Shown here one piece after another: positions 5,080 to 21,659 of a stretch of DNA of 21,659 bases (position 1 is the first letter of the stretch; each line of letters begins with the position of its first letter). This stretch comes from a virus. The position numbers were made by a program, and so were the translations under genes. The DNA is taken from IMG/VR virus record IMGVR_UViG_3300042987_001352, positions 1-21,659 of that record; one strand, given 5' to 3'. Below the pieces are notes generated by a model. The model was not told the DNA's origin, made no database searches, and worked only from the letters and a program-made list of their open reading frames with translations.

Positions 5080-5116
5080 AGTACCTCAATTGTATCATAA
5101 AAACCTTTACATACAA
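5080..5116 (-). promoter_or_regulatory. Likely promoter of the tail-gene unit
   Basis: On the minus strand TACAAT (5094-5089) lies nine bases before the ATG at 5079, with a weak TTGTAT (5116-5111) 16 bases further upstream. The predicted start of transcription would leave a leader of only a few bases. It follows directly on the capsid terminator, which argues that the tail genes are re-initiated here. Confidence 0.45.
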
Positions 5117-5117
5117 A

Positions 5118-5143
5118 CACAAGACCCCGGCTTTCGCCGGGGC
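5118..5143 (-). terminator. Intrinsic terminator after the major capsid gene
   Basis: A perfect 7-bp stem (5125-5131 with 5136-5142, CCCCGGC/GCCGGGG) closes a four-base loop that reads GAAA on the minus strand, a GNRA tetraloop. It is followed on the minus strand by TCTTGTGTTTG, a modest T-rich tail. It lies 41 bases past the capsid stop codon and is correctly oriented for that transcript. Confidence 0.7.
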
Positions 5144-5162
5144 CAAGTGCCGAACGTAATAT

Positions 5163-5182
5163 GTAACTATAACGTCCTAAGG
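5163..5182 (+). other. 23S rRNA helix 69-like 20-mer in the capsid 3' untranslated region
   Basis: The plus strand reads GTAACTATAACGTCCTAAGG. The universally conserved 23S rRNA segment covering the helix 69 loop (about 1910-1930 in E. coli numbering, also the core of the I-CeuI target) is the same except for one extra G after ACG. The capsid mRNA is made from the other strand, so it would carry the antisense of this rRNA segment directly after its stop codon and before the terminator hairpin. The match is from memory of the rRNA sequence; function unknown. Confidence 0.6.
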
Positions 5183-5183
5183 A

Positions 5184-6215
5184 TTACAGGGTACGAAGCT
5201 TGACGTTCTTCGCAATCACATACGACTCAGCGTTCTCAATGTTGGACGCAATCCGCATGAACTGTGTGTACTCAATTGTGTCAGTCTTCGGCTGGAACTG
5301 GCGATACACTGTAATGTCACGATGCAGACCAACAATCTTGTTGTTCGGCTGTGTCAACTCAATGTAACCATGAGAACCAGCGGCACCCGAATAGTCACCC
5401 GAAACAGTTTCGGGCATCAACGGAACCTCAACCAACGGAATACCAAACGGCGAGATGCCAGTCGCACCAGCACCGCCATTAGCACGCATAGCGCCCGTCA
5501 AGAACGCCGTGTCGCCAATGGTCGAACCGGGCGAAGGGGCACCAGAAGTAGCAGCAGTAGCGCTGTTCGGAGCCGAAAGGCTGAAGATGGTGTCCTGCAC
5601 CACGCCAGAACCAGTGAAGTAACGAAGATCGTTTCTTCTCTGGAGATACTTTGTCGGCATGTTGCGGAGAACACGATCAAATGTCGCACGCGACACGTTG
5701 TTTCCAGCCTCATCAACCACTGTACCGCTAGCAATCGCCAACTTCACAAAGCCATCAAGAGCCTTGAGAAGAGCGTTGCCCGACGAGGTGTTGCCATTGA
5801 TAAGCAGATCGTCAAGGTCATTGGCAGTCTGGCGAGCCATAACCTGCGCAATGTGATCCTCAAGCGACGGGCCTTCAATGTTATCCTCTAACGACTCAGT
5901 GCTGATCTCCCAATCCAGACGCAATTTAACGCTGGACAGCGAAACCTTTGTGAATGTAACGGCGGCGTTAGAACCATCGTCAGTCGCCTCCGAAGCCTTG
6001 CGAAGAAGACGAGTCCCCACCGCAAGTTTGTCAATTTCCATTGACGGTGTGCGCATACGCACGACACGTGCGTTCTGCATAAGAACAGACTGATCGACCA
6101 CAAAATCTAAGAACCGATTCGCCTGCTCAGCATTCAGAAGACCACCCGAAGCAGCACCGACAACGCTAGTTGTCACCTCGTTAGCCTTCGCTAAAATTTC
6201 CTCTTGAGTTGCCAT
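5184..6215 (-). CDS. Major capsid protein, HK97 fold
   Basis: 343 residues. The pattern QANRFLDFVVDQSVLMQNAR, then 'VRMRTPSMEIDKLAVGTRLLRKA' and 'VKLRLDWEISTESLEDNIEG', followed by 'ARQTANDLDDLLINGN', is that of HK97-fold phage major capsid proteins (the P2/phi-type group with an N-terminal arm, E-loop and P-domain helix). The middle has a Gly/Ala/Ser-rich insertion (about 215-265). A strong AGGAGG precedes the ATG. It lies directly downstream of the protease-scaffold gene, the classic order. Base composition is visibly more GC-rich than the tail genes, as expected of a highly expressed gene with selected codons. It forms the procapsid lattice on the scaffold and is matured by the protease. 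Confidence 0.92.
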   Translation of the reverse strand: MATQEEILAKANEVTTSVVGAASGGLLNAEQANRFLDFVVDQSVLMQNARVVRMRTPSMEIDKLAVGTRLLRKASEATDDGSNAAVTFTKVSLSSVKLRLDWEISTESLEDNIEGPSLEDHIAQVMARQTANDLDDLLINGNTSSGNALLKALDGFVKLAIASGTVVDEAGNNVSRATFDRVLRNMPTKYLQRRNDLRYFTGSGVVQDTIFSLSAPNSATAATSGAPSPGSTIGDTAFLTGAMRANGGAGATGISPFGIPLVEVPLMPETVSGDYSGAAGSHGYIELTQPNNKIVGLHRDITVYRQFQPKTDTIEYTQFMRIASNIENAESYVIAKNVKLRTL

Positions 6216-18999: not shown

Positions 19000-19072
19000 G
19001 CCGAATTAGCTCAGTAGGTAGAGCAACCGCCTTGTAAGCGGTAGGTCACGGGTTCGATTCCTGTATTCGGCT
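19000..19072 (+). tRNA. tRNA-Thr, anticodon UGU
   Basis: 73 bases with a full cloverleaf: acceptor GCCGAAT with ATTCGGC, D-arm GCTC...GAGC, anticodon stem ACCGC/GCGGT around the loop CTTGTAA (anticodon TGT at 19033-19035), T-arm with TTCGATT, and T as discriminator base. The 3' CCA is not encoded. It reads the ACA codon, which is frequent in the phage tail genes and in the A/C-rich right-hand genes, so it may support their translation. Confidence 0.93.
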
Positions 19073-19712: not shown

Positions 19713-20311
19713 TGAAAAGTAATTGGGTTTCTGATTCTTGGGAAACTGTTTGTTCCCGCCAGTTAGGGGACATATATGATCACTATTATGGATGGTACAC
19801 AGGGTTAGATAGATTAGAATCTATCAACCCGATTGTAGAAATAGAAAACCATCTGAACTATATTATAGAATACACAGAAGGATTCACTAAACCGATCACC
19901 CCGGCCGTATTGAGTGGTTTAGATAATAATTACATTTTTTTTGATATCGCCGCATACGCCATATTTATGGTAGACGCATTAGAAGATTTTGTTATAGACC
20001 GACACCATATATGTGAAATATTAATAAAAAAACAAAAAGATTACGGCCCGGCAAACATCATGAAATTTGGCCCCACCGGAATCATCATACGGCTATACGA
20101 CAAAATAGCACGACTATGGAACCTCACCGAAAACACCGGCAACATCAACCTATACATCAAACTCAACAACCACCACAACGAATCCATCATAGACACACTC
20201 ATAGACATAATCGGATACTCAACCATCGCCCTCATGGTCTTAGACCCCGACCCCATCCACAAAAACAAATTCCTCACCCCCATGAACCAAAACAACCACC
20301 AACAATGCTAA
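19709..20311 (+). CDS. DUF1599/Nmad1-like nucleotide-modification-associated protein
   Basis: 200 residues, all helical. The segment KKQKDYGPANIMKFGPTGII (about 106-125), then RLYDKIARLWNLTE, and later NESIIDTLIDIIGYSTIAL match the 'K..DYG..N...G..G...R..DK..R..NL....ES..D...D..GY..I' pattern of the Nmad1 (DUF1599) domain, related to all-alpha NTP pyrophosphatases and often encoded near thymidylate synthases in phages. Likely role: handling a (modified) pyrimidine nucleotide. The first half of the gene (to about 20040) is AT-rich like the phage; the second half is extremely A/C-rich. The protein family motif spans this switch without any break. The stop overlaps the deaminase ATG by seven bases. 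Confidence 0.78.
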   Translation: MMKSNWVSDSWETVCSRQLGDIYDHYYGWYTGLDRLESINPIVEIENHLNYIIEYTEGFTKPITPAVLSGLDNNYIFFDIAAYAIFMVDALEDFVIDRHHICEILIKKQKDYGPANIMKFGPTGIIIRLYDKIARLWNLTENTGNINLYIKLNNHHNESIIDTLIDIIGYSTIALMVLDPDPIHKNKFLTPMNQNNHQQC

Positions 20312-20815
20312 CCGACACACAAGCCCAAAAATGGCTACACATAGCCCAAAACATCGCACAAACACTATCCACCTGCAACAAAAAACAATACGCAGCCATC
20401 ATCCTCAACCAACACAAACGAGTCATCAGCATCGGATACAACGGCTCACCCCCCGGCCACCCACACTGCACAAACGGACACTGCCCCCGATACTGGGAAA
20501 ACACACCGAATGGCCAAAACTACGACAACTGCATCGCCAACCACGCAGAAACAAACGCCCTCCTATGGGCCGACCCAGCCCAACTACACAACGCAACACT
20601 CATCATCAACGGGCCACCCTGCTACACATGCACCAAACTCATCTGCACCAGCGGAATCACCCAACTCATACACCACCCAGACCCAACATACCAACAATGG
20701 CCACAATGCCAACAAACCCTACAAACCAGCGGAATCACCATCACCACCATCCCCCACCCCACAACCACCCCAACCACCACCACCTACAACCCCAACCCCA
20801 AAAACCAACGCTAAC
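20040..20815 (+). other. Segment with extreme amino (A+C) strand bias
   Basis: By direct counting, 102 of 114 bases at 20701-20814 and 48 of 60 at 20341-20400 are A or C on the plus strand, against 35 of 60 at 19470-19529. Third codon positions are almost all C or A. The change is abrupt, near 20040, inside the Nmad1-like gene. The encoded proteins keep their family motifs, so this is a coding-compatible base bias and not decay. Confidence 0.85.
20305..20814 (+). CDS. Deoxycytidylate (dCMP) deaminase
   Basis: 169 residues from the ATG at 20305 that overlaps the previous stop. The cytidine-deaminase-type zinc site is intact: His80-Ala-Glu82 (HAETNALLWAD) and Pro105-Cys106-x2-Cys109 (GPPCYTCTKL). 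The upstream SIGYNGSPPGHPHCTNGHCP is the substrate loop of dCMP deaminases, with the extra Cys/His ligands seen in phage T4 gp CD (second structural zinc). It deaminates dCMP to dUMP, the substrate of ThyX. A 25-residue Pro/Thr/Asn-rich tail follows the fold. Codon use is extreme (A/C in third positions), which makes the tail partly a by-product of base bias. Confidence 0.92.
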   Translation: MLTDTQAQKWLHIAQNIAQTLSTCNKKQYAAIILNQHKRVISIGYNGSPPGHPHCTNGHCPRYWENTPNGQNYDNCIANHAETNALLWADPAQLHNATLIINGPPCYTCTKLICTSGITQLIHHPDPTYQQWPQCQQTLQTSGITITTIPHPTTTPTTTTYNPNPKNQR

Positions 20816-20984
20816 CCAAAAAAAACAAAAAATTGAGTATATAGTTTTAGAGGGTAAGGCTTGAAAGAAAGCTCCCGCACGCTGGGATTTCGACCCCGGT
20901 CAAACGATTACCCCTTGCGTTCTCTAACGGTGTCCCGTAGTGTTCCGGTCGTCGGCAACCGCCGACCGAACGAAAGGGAAAGCA
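20815..20984 (+). other. Intergenic junction into GC-rich segment
   Basis: A 170-base stretch with no gene. It starts with an A-rich run and TATATAG (possible -10) and changes around 20870 to GC-rich sequence. It includes an imperfect hairpin (20946-20968, CGGTCG/CGACCG with inner CGG/CCG) and AAAGGGAAA before the next ATG. No attachment site or integrase trace is seen. Confidence 0.5.
20946..20968 (+). repeat. Leader hairpin of the GC-rich gene
   Basis: A 23-base imperfect palindrome: six paired bases (CGGTCG with CGACCG), a T/C mismatch, three more pairs and the loop CAA. It sits 16 bases before the start codon, upstream of the ribosome site, so it may be a regulatory or stability hairpin; no T tract follows. 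Confidence 0.45.
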
Positions 20985-21416
20985 ATGCGACAGGCAGAGG
21001 TAGTGCTGGCGAAGCCCAGCAAGGCGCAGAAAGCGCAAGCGTTCCGGGAGGCTACGGCTCACGCCGTTGCGAACCGGGCAAAGGGCGGGGCGCTCGTCCG
21101 AATCTCGGACGGCACCCGGACTCACGAGGTTCCCCGAATCACGGCGGTGCGGTTCGCCGTCATTCTCGCAAACCTCACCGGCGAGGCGGTTGAGGTCACC
21201 GACCTCTTCATCGTCACCGGCGACGAATACAGCGCCGACCGTTCGGCTCTCTACCATCTCACGCACCGGGCGACCGGGGCGGTGGAATCGGCGCACGGCG
21301 CACGAATCAAGGTCACGGCGTTCCTCGCCGGCACCGTCACCCGGAAGGGTCGCACCCTCGCCGGAATCACCAGCACGAAGGGTGAATGCGAGGCGGTGGT
21401 CATCAGCCTCGCATAA
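20985..21416 (+). CDS. Hypothetical protein in the GC-rich terminal segment
   Basis: 143 residues. The ATG at 20985 is preceded by AAAGGG at a good distance (the frame is open further upstream but without signal). The composition is Ala/Arg/Thr-rich: MRQAEVVLAKPSKAQKAQAF, then 'GTRTHEVPRITAVRFAVILANLTGEAVEVTDLFIVTGDEY' and 'RKGRTLAGITSTKGECEAV'. Third positions are mostly G or C, as in a high-GC bacterium. Not recognised. The gene is followed 26 bases later by a strong terminator, so it is a self-contained unit unlike the rest of the window. Confidence 0.65.
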   Translation: MRQAEVVLAKPSKAQKAQAFREATAHAVANRAKGGALVRISDGTRTHEVPRITAVRFAVILANLTGEAVEVTDLFIVTGDEYSADRSALYHLTHRATGAVESAHGARIKVTAFLAGTVTRKGRTLAGITSTKGECEAVVISLA

Positions 21417-21441
21417 CCGAACCGGGTCGGGTCGGGAGCAG

Positions 21442-21473
21442 GAGCCGGGGCGAAAGCCCCGGCTCTTTGCTTT
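21442..21473 (+). terminator. Strong intrinsic terminator with GAAA tetraloop
   Basis: A perfect 10-bp stem GAGCCGGGGC (21442-21451) with GCCCCGGCTC (21456-21465) and loop GAAA, followed by TTTGCTTT. Same design (C/G stem, GAAA loop) as the terminator after the capsid gene. Confidence 0.85.
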
Positions 21474-21520
21474 CCCCGGCACGGCGGCCGCGGGCGGGTC
21501 GGGAACCGGGAACCGGGGCG

Positions 21521-21579
21521 AGAGCCGGGTCGAGCGTTCGTCCCCTTATTGGGGAACCACTTTCAGAGCCGGGTCGAGC
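21521..21579 (+). repeat. 15-base direct repeat
   Basis: AGAGCCGGGTCGAGC at 21521-21535 and again at 21565-21579, with a partial third copy (GGTCGAGCC) at 21592-21600. They lie between the terminator and the DnaA-box-like cluster and could be iteron-like sites. Confidence 0.6.
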
Positions 21580-21600
21580 CGTGCCGCGCAAGGTCGAGCC

Positions 21601-21654
21601 TGTGGATAAACCTGTGGACGACTGTGGATAACCTCGCTATCCACAGAATCCACA
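21601..21654. other. DnaA-box-like cluster (origin-like)
   Basis: Two perfect complements of the TTATCCACA box (TGTGGATAA at 21601-21609 and 21623-21631), TGTGGACGA at 21613-21621, CTATCCACA at 21637-21645 (one mismatch) and GAATCCACA at 21646-21654 (two mismatches), in both orientations within 54 bases. The window ends here. Such density is typical of bacterial chromosomal origins, dnaA promoters or plasmid origins. Confidence 0.6.
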
Positions 21655-21659
21655 GGGGT

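Follow-up and report, generated by a model that had tools for sequence, protein, structure and literature searches.

The 3' untranslated region (3'UTR) of a phage capsid gene carries a conserved RNA hairpin, present on the mRNA strand, that complements helix 69 (H69) of 23S rRNA through its loop and 5' arm. On the strength of sequence and structural conservation, we think it probable, though well short of certain, that this hairpin belongs to a phage antisense-RNA module directed against H69, which would bind the free 50S subunit and, we infer, lower or redirect translation. The window analysed here is the whole 21,659-nucleotide stretch of the IMG/VR record IMGVR_UViG_3300042987_001352, and its features, together with the coordinates of related RNAs in other phages, are collected in Table 1. 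The capsid protein of the window is about 50% identical to the capsids of Stanwilliamsviridae, which are phages of Streptomyces.

Table 1. Features of the window and of related phage RNAs
Feature	Position	Strand	Basis or remark
Major capsid protein gene	5184..6215	-	343 aa; PHROG phrog_1623, E 1e-85
Anti-H69 segment in the capsid mRNA 3'UTR, CCUUAGGACGUUAUAGUUAC	5163..5182	-	Complement of 23S H69 with one rRNA G bulged
Hairpin presenting the anti-H69 loop, GGACGU(5177-5172)/ACGUUC(5157-5152)	5152..5177	-	Fold, and covariation in relatives
Predicted intrinsic terminator, directly downstream	5113..5144	-	Stem 5144-5123, then a T-rich tail
Single tRNA gene	19000-19072	+	Rfam RF00005, 73.8 bits
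tRNA-array ncRNA loci in other phages	L239, L408, L418, L419, L431, L447, L472, L479, L502, L507, L510
Endolysin-downstream ncRNA, Streptomyces phage Angela	L552:1433-1575

The original prediction held that the 20-mer at this place equals the H69 region of 23S rRNA minus one G, and comparison with the Salmonella 23S gene (L404) bears this out. The gene reads CGUAACUAUAACGGUCCUAAGGUAGCG, with the matching block at 1951; GUAACUAUAACGGUCCUAAGG occurs in it once, at that position, and the 20-mer of the window lacks one of its two Gs. The rRNA stretch complemented by CCUUAGGACGUUAUAGUUAC is approximately 1910-1930 of 23S in E. coli numbering. The plus-strand sequence GTAACTATAACGTCCTAAGG at 5163-5182 is the sole match in the window at up to three mismatches, and none of 100 shuffled sequences contained one. 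The match is not due to chance, as had also been proposed. The expected placement of the complement in the capsid mRNA agrees with the coordinates: it begins one base past the stop codon TAA and lies before the terminator. The 3'UTR folds far more stably than its shuffled versions (z = -4.9), and its layout, in which an intrinsic terminator comes directly after a conserved segment for pairing, is the one that characterizes terminator-tailed and 3'UTR-derived small RNAs. Rfam families gave no match to the element at or near the gathering score. Elsewhere in the window, the GC skew between 20000 and 21659 reaches about -0.5 at a dCMP deaminase gene, and the GC content is 0.65-0.69 from position 20,900 on, compared with about 0.4 before; the stretch 20000-21659 is possibly a chimeric or foreign contig end.

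The same element recurs after the capsid genes of related phages, as the original prediction had anticipated. To survey it, we gathered capsid relatives first and read their 3'UTRs afterwards, a procedure that avoids the bias of motif-based searching. Family A comprises the relatives of the window's capsid (related to the Stanwilliamsviridae of Streptomyces), and family B is a second, unrelated capsid family, assigned to a different PHROG and found on contigs of up to 150-177 kb. In this capsid-anchored survey of IMG/VR contigs, which are partly redundant and fragmentary, the element stands 3' of the capsid gene in 21 of 77 family-A relatives and in all 79 family-B relatives. When IMG/VR was scanned with a pattern whose centre was any zero to three bases, 64 loci were returned, most of which immediately follow the stop codon of a capsid gene and precede a terminator, with the element starting 0-6 nt past the stop codon in most cases; under the strict pattern, 17 long records contain at most one copy per genome. 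Several matches to the broad pattern are probably chance (L026, L028, L035, L043, L045/L051, L055, L058 and L009). A further locus family (L019, L020, L021, L032, L044 and L061) carries CCTTAGGAGTTATAGTTACCCCCGG, with a zero-base centre, on contigs of up to 134 kb.

Within the family-A tree the carriers fall into two clades, which requires at least two gains or losses of the element. The 3'UTR of the window resembles that of the smaller carrier clade (L093/L107), whereas its capsid belongs to the larger clade, and this mismatch suggests that the element moves by recombination. Among isolated phages, a search with the 20-mer yielded nothing beyond genuine 23S contaminants and weak matches due to chance, and the isolated capsid relatives lack the UTR element; for Bacillus phage KLEB27-3, 27 relatives were found, and all 15 of the 3'UTRs read were without it.

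To assess the complementarity against the rest of the rRNA, we scanned all 2,921 21-nt windows of 23S with G-U pairs allowed, because an exact 13-mer scan is too strict for an element whose centre varies. The capsid 3'UTRs pair at 20 or more of 21 positions at H69 and at no other 23S window, with 16 of 64 distinct family-A UTRs and 28 of 42 family-B UTRs reaching this level. H69 is likewise the best duplex site in the whole of 23S for each of the 89 distinct elements, with a mean duplex energy of -30.3 kcal/mol, compared with -17.5 at the best other site and -18.2 for shuffled sequences; the predicted duplex with H69 is about 20 bp long. In family A, all seven variable positions of the 21 change only from C to T or from A to G relative to the perfect complement, so that pairing with the rRNA is kept as G-U, and three of the seven are loop positions, on which the hairpin places no constraint. 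In family B, pairing survives just 5 of the 12 kinds of change. Taken together, the duplex energies, the window scan, the arm identities (given below) and the substitutions indicate that complementarity to H69 is unique within 23S and kept by selection, and H69 as the putative target is well supported.

The two arms of the hairpin have evolved very differently. The 5' arm is conserved at an identity of 0.96 in family A and 0.92 in family B, and the loop at 0.93 and 0.98, whereas the zone of the 3' partner arm has drifted to 0.40 and 0.48, the same as the flanking sequence. The partner arm still pairs despite this drift: helix pairing with a locus's own arm scores 6.48, compared with a mean of 5.57 and a maximum of 5.79 when partner arms were swapped among loci 500 times. 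A hairpin acting alone would leave both arms free to vary, and the conservation of the 5' arm and loop therefore indicates that these serve something else.

Where a family-A phage lacks the UTR element, its genome often encodes an anti-H69 RNA at another place. Of 17 such records with a length of 20 kb or more, 10 have an intergenic small RNA that contains CTTRGGACCGTTATAG followed by a strong terminator; a reversed control pattern also matched at up to three mismatches in the wobble-pattern search of family-A genomes, and we therefore restricted the count to the ten places where the 16-mer occurs exactly. In G187, the small RNA is preceded by a TATAAT-like box and agrees with the anti-23S sequence at 27 of 28 nt, with a single G-U. 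Phage tRNA arrays harbour another non-coding RNA, 75-126 nt long, with a long closing stem that differs in sequence between loci; it contains CTTAGGATGTTATAGTTAC, and since this exact pattern was used to find the loci, that it is conserved among them follows by construction. A capsid gene was found in four of the tRNA-array records and is of family A in all of them; the three with a readable capsid 3'UTR lack the UTR element. The searches for the intergenic and tRNA-array RNAs were both motif-based and were run after the motif was known. In one metagenomic phage (L003, L006 and L008), the full 20-mer complement lies 24 nt past a ribonucleotide reductase gene, before a terminator.

Cultured phages provide a further case. 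In 126 records of cultured Streptomyces phages, the endolysin gene and the gene that follows it flank an unannotated ncRNA, and 11 diverse representatives share CTTAGGATGnGTTATAaTTAC just before the terminator, with covarying hairpins upstream. Their anti-H69 segment is degenerate, with indels and one mismatch, and because of this imperfect match we grade targeting of H69 by the Streptomyces-phage ncRNA as probable and not firmer. A search for anti-H69 RNA in Rhodococcus phages Dorin and Weasels2 and in Bacillus phage KLEB27-3 found none. That related phages keep the complement in small RNAs of several unrelated kinds suggests a use by phages of antisense RNA against the very ribosome of the host.

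The central bases of these elements can be compared with the H69 alleles of bacteria. The sampled genomes from the phylum of Catenulispora have three H69 types at the centre of the block, GGU, CAU and CGU, with CAU being the type of Streptomyces (Streptomyces sp. BHT-5-2). The family-A elements have R-Y-Y at this place, which complements GGU, and all 19 family-A elements compared prefer GGU to CAU; many family-B elements have A as the third central base, which mismatches the GGU type. The ncRNAs of Streptomyces phages read AUG opposite CAU and favour CAU over GGU by 4-8 kcal/mol, with CGU about as good as CAU. The central bases thus appear to fit the H69 allele type, GGU in the metagenomic phages and CAU in the Streptomyces phages.

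A sense copy of H69 (TCGTAACTATAACGGTCCTAAGGTAGCG) also exists outside 23S, in a structured RNA-like gene of many bacterial phyla (L364, L348, L350, L353, L356, L393, L363, L399 and others). In several genomes it lies within tRNA arrays, on the same strand, and no Rfam match was obtained at the sense-H69 loci scanned. This RNA could be an H69 decoy. A scan of genomes for the phage-type element returned none, only 23S genes and these sense-H69 RNAs.

H69 forms intersubunit bridge B2a and contacts the A- and P-site tRNAs. Because it is buried in the 70S ribosome, access by an RNA would be limited to free or immature 50S subunits. We propose that, during the late phase of infection, the capsid transcript, which would be abundant, or a piece of it ending in the terminator, would dock on H69 of the free 50S, first through loop-loop contact between the phage hairpin and the complementary loop of H69, after which the 5' arm, complementary to the 3' strand of H69, would extend the duplex to its full length. 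Bridge B2a would then be masked, so that joining of the 30S would be blocked or 50S subunits held back; a 50S unable to join the 30S seems the likeliest result, and host or late translation would be damped. Further possible outcomes are that assembly of new 50S would be stopped, H69 protected, or 23S exposed to RNase III. The 3' end of the capsid mRNA might plausibly be released as a small RNA. That this helix is functional is seen in mutations such as A1912G and A1919G, which block translation (PMC1190176), and in the inhibition of E. coli growth by a peptide nucleic acid (PNA) against H69 (PMC7038079). Several considerations count against the proposal: H69 is hardly accessible in the 70S ribosome; a phage late in infection still needs ribosomes, which would make strong inhibition costly; the family-B changes and third central base often fail to keep the pairing; the Streptomyces-phage version is imperfect and suits CGU about as well as CAU; and two-thirds of the family-A relatives are without the element after the capsid gene.

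Pairing with the ribosome might instead serve the capsid mRNA itself. A 50S subunit released at the stop codon would find its complement a few bases downstream, and the hairpin, working only in cis, could aid recycling, prevent re-initiation or read-through, or stabilise the message. The close spacing to the stop codon in most loci and the single copy per genome fit such a role, yet the same module stands in intergenic small RNAs, in tRNA arrays and 3' of endolysin genes in Streptomyces phages, and in one case 24 nt past a ribonucleotide reductase gene, and we consider the cis-acting explanation unlikely. Given these stand-alone siblings, the RNA is more likely to act in trans than on the capsid mRNA only. 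The earlier suggestions of pairing with ribosomes and of membership in a small RNA are supported as possibilities, and the siblings favour an RNA that would act on the ribosome. Such an RNA might also shield H69 from a host nuclease directed at it, or it might form a duplex that RNase III cuts, destroying the 23S. We know of no bacterial H69 nuclease in these hosts, and rate this protective or degradative pairing as quite unlikely, even though the duplex length suits it and the sense-H69 RNAs encoded in bacterial tRNA arrays might serve as decoys in such a conflict. Nucleases that cut H69 do exist, as exemplified by Ribocin, which acts on eukaryotic ribosomes (PMC13189344).

There are two other explanations. 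The conserved loop and covarying stem are also what a protein-binding site would look like, and the hairpin might bind a protein or another RNA, its resemblance to H69 being incidental; given that the match is unique among the 23S windows, that the same complement appears in several unrelated architectures and that the centre fits the H69 allele, we regard this as very improbable. The original prediction had further raised the possibility of a relic of a homing endonuclease target, according to which an rDNA-derived endonuclease or intron site of the I-CeuI type landed 3' of the capsid gene. The segment overlaps the known I-CeuI core, and HNH endonuclease genes occur in related phages. The hairpin covaries, however, and its helix is better on the mRNA strand in 57 loci and on the opposite strand in 12; the centre varies in both sequence and length, the family-A changes keep G-U pairing, the allele fit would be unexplained, and no intron is present at the site. 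An I-CeuI-type site was rejected in particular because the DNA core is not intact, with a one-base deletion in the window and variable centres in relatives, while RNA pairing is kept. A DNA-level origin is hence hardly tenable.

Returning to the antisense module, a broader reading, to which we would give an even chance, is that small RNAs pairing with host H69 may constitute a widespread phage strategy, tuned to the H69 allele, realised in at least four RNA architectures and controlling ribosome availability during infection, with the sense-H69 RNAs of bacterial tRNA arrays perhaps being opposing decoys. H69 is a universal and drug-relevant site, and the Streptomyces-phage ncRNA 3' of the endolysin gene is conserved, is without annotation in the records examined and is carried by phages in culture.

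The element resembles the 3'UTR-derived small RNAs of bacteria, including phage candidates such as the 3'UTR ncRNA of phiKZ PHIKZ298 (PMC8545117), in that an mRNA closes with a brief conserved stretch for pairing and then an intrinsic terminator; those known pair with mRNAs or have no known target, whereas the phage element complements a functional core of 23S. It shares its target with the anti-H69 peptide nucleic acids (Kulik et al. 2017, cited in PMC7038079). These are synthetic, whereas the phage element is a natural, structured and phage-encoded RNA. With the kissing antisense hairpins of ColE1 (RNAI/RNAII) and R1 (CopA/CopT) it has in common the complementary loops and a possible loop-loop start, but those act in the regulation of plasmid RNAs, while the partner here would be rRNA. 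Archaeal and eukaryotic guide RNAs of the C/D and H/ACA types are natural RNAs that pair with rRNA, H69 included; unlike the phage element, they direct rRNA modification with protein partners, and to our knowledge they do not occur in bacteria or phages. Phages are known to attack the ribosome with proteins, and neither Rfam nor the open-access literature searched contains a description of a natural antisense RNA against a functional rRNA helix. Thus, the format of a terminator-tailed antisense RNA is familiar, and what is new is the kind of target, a functional helix of rRNA.
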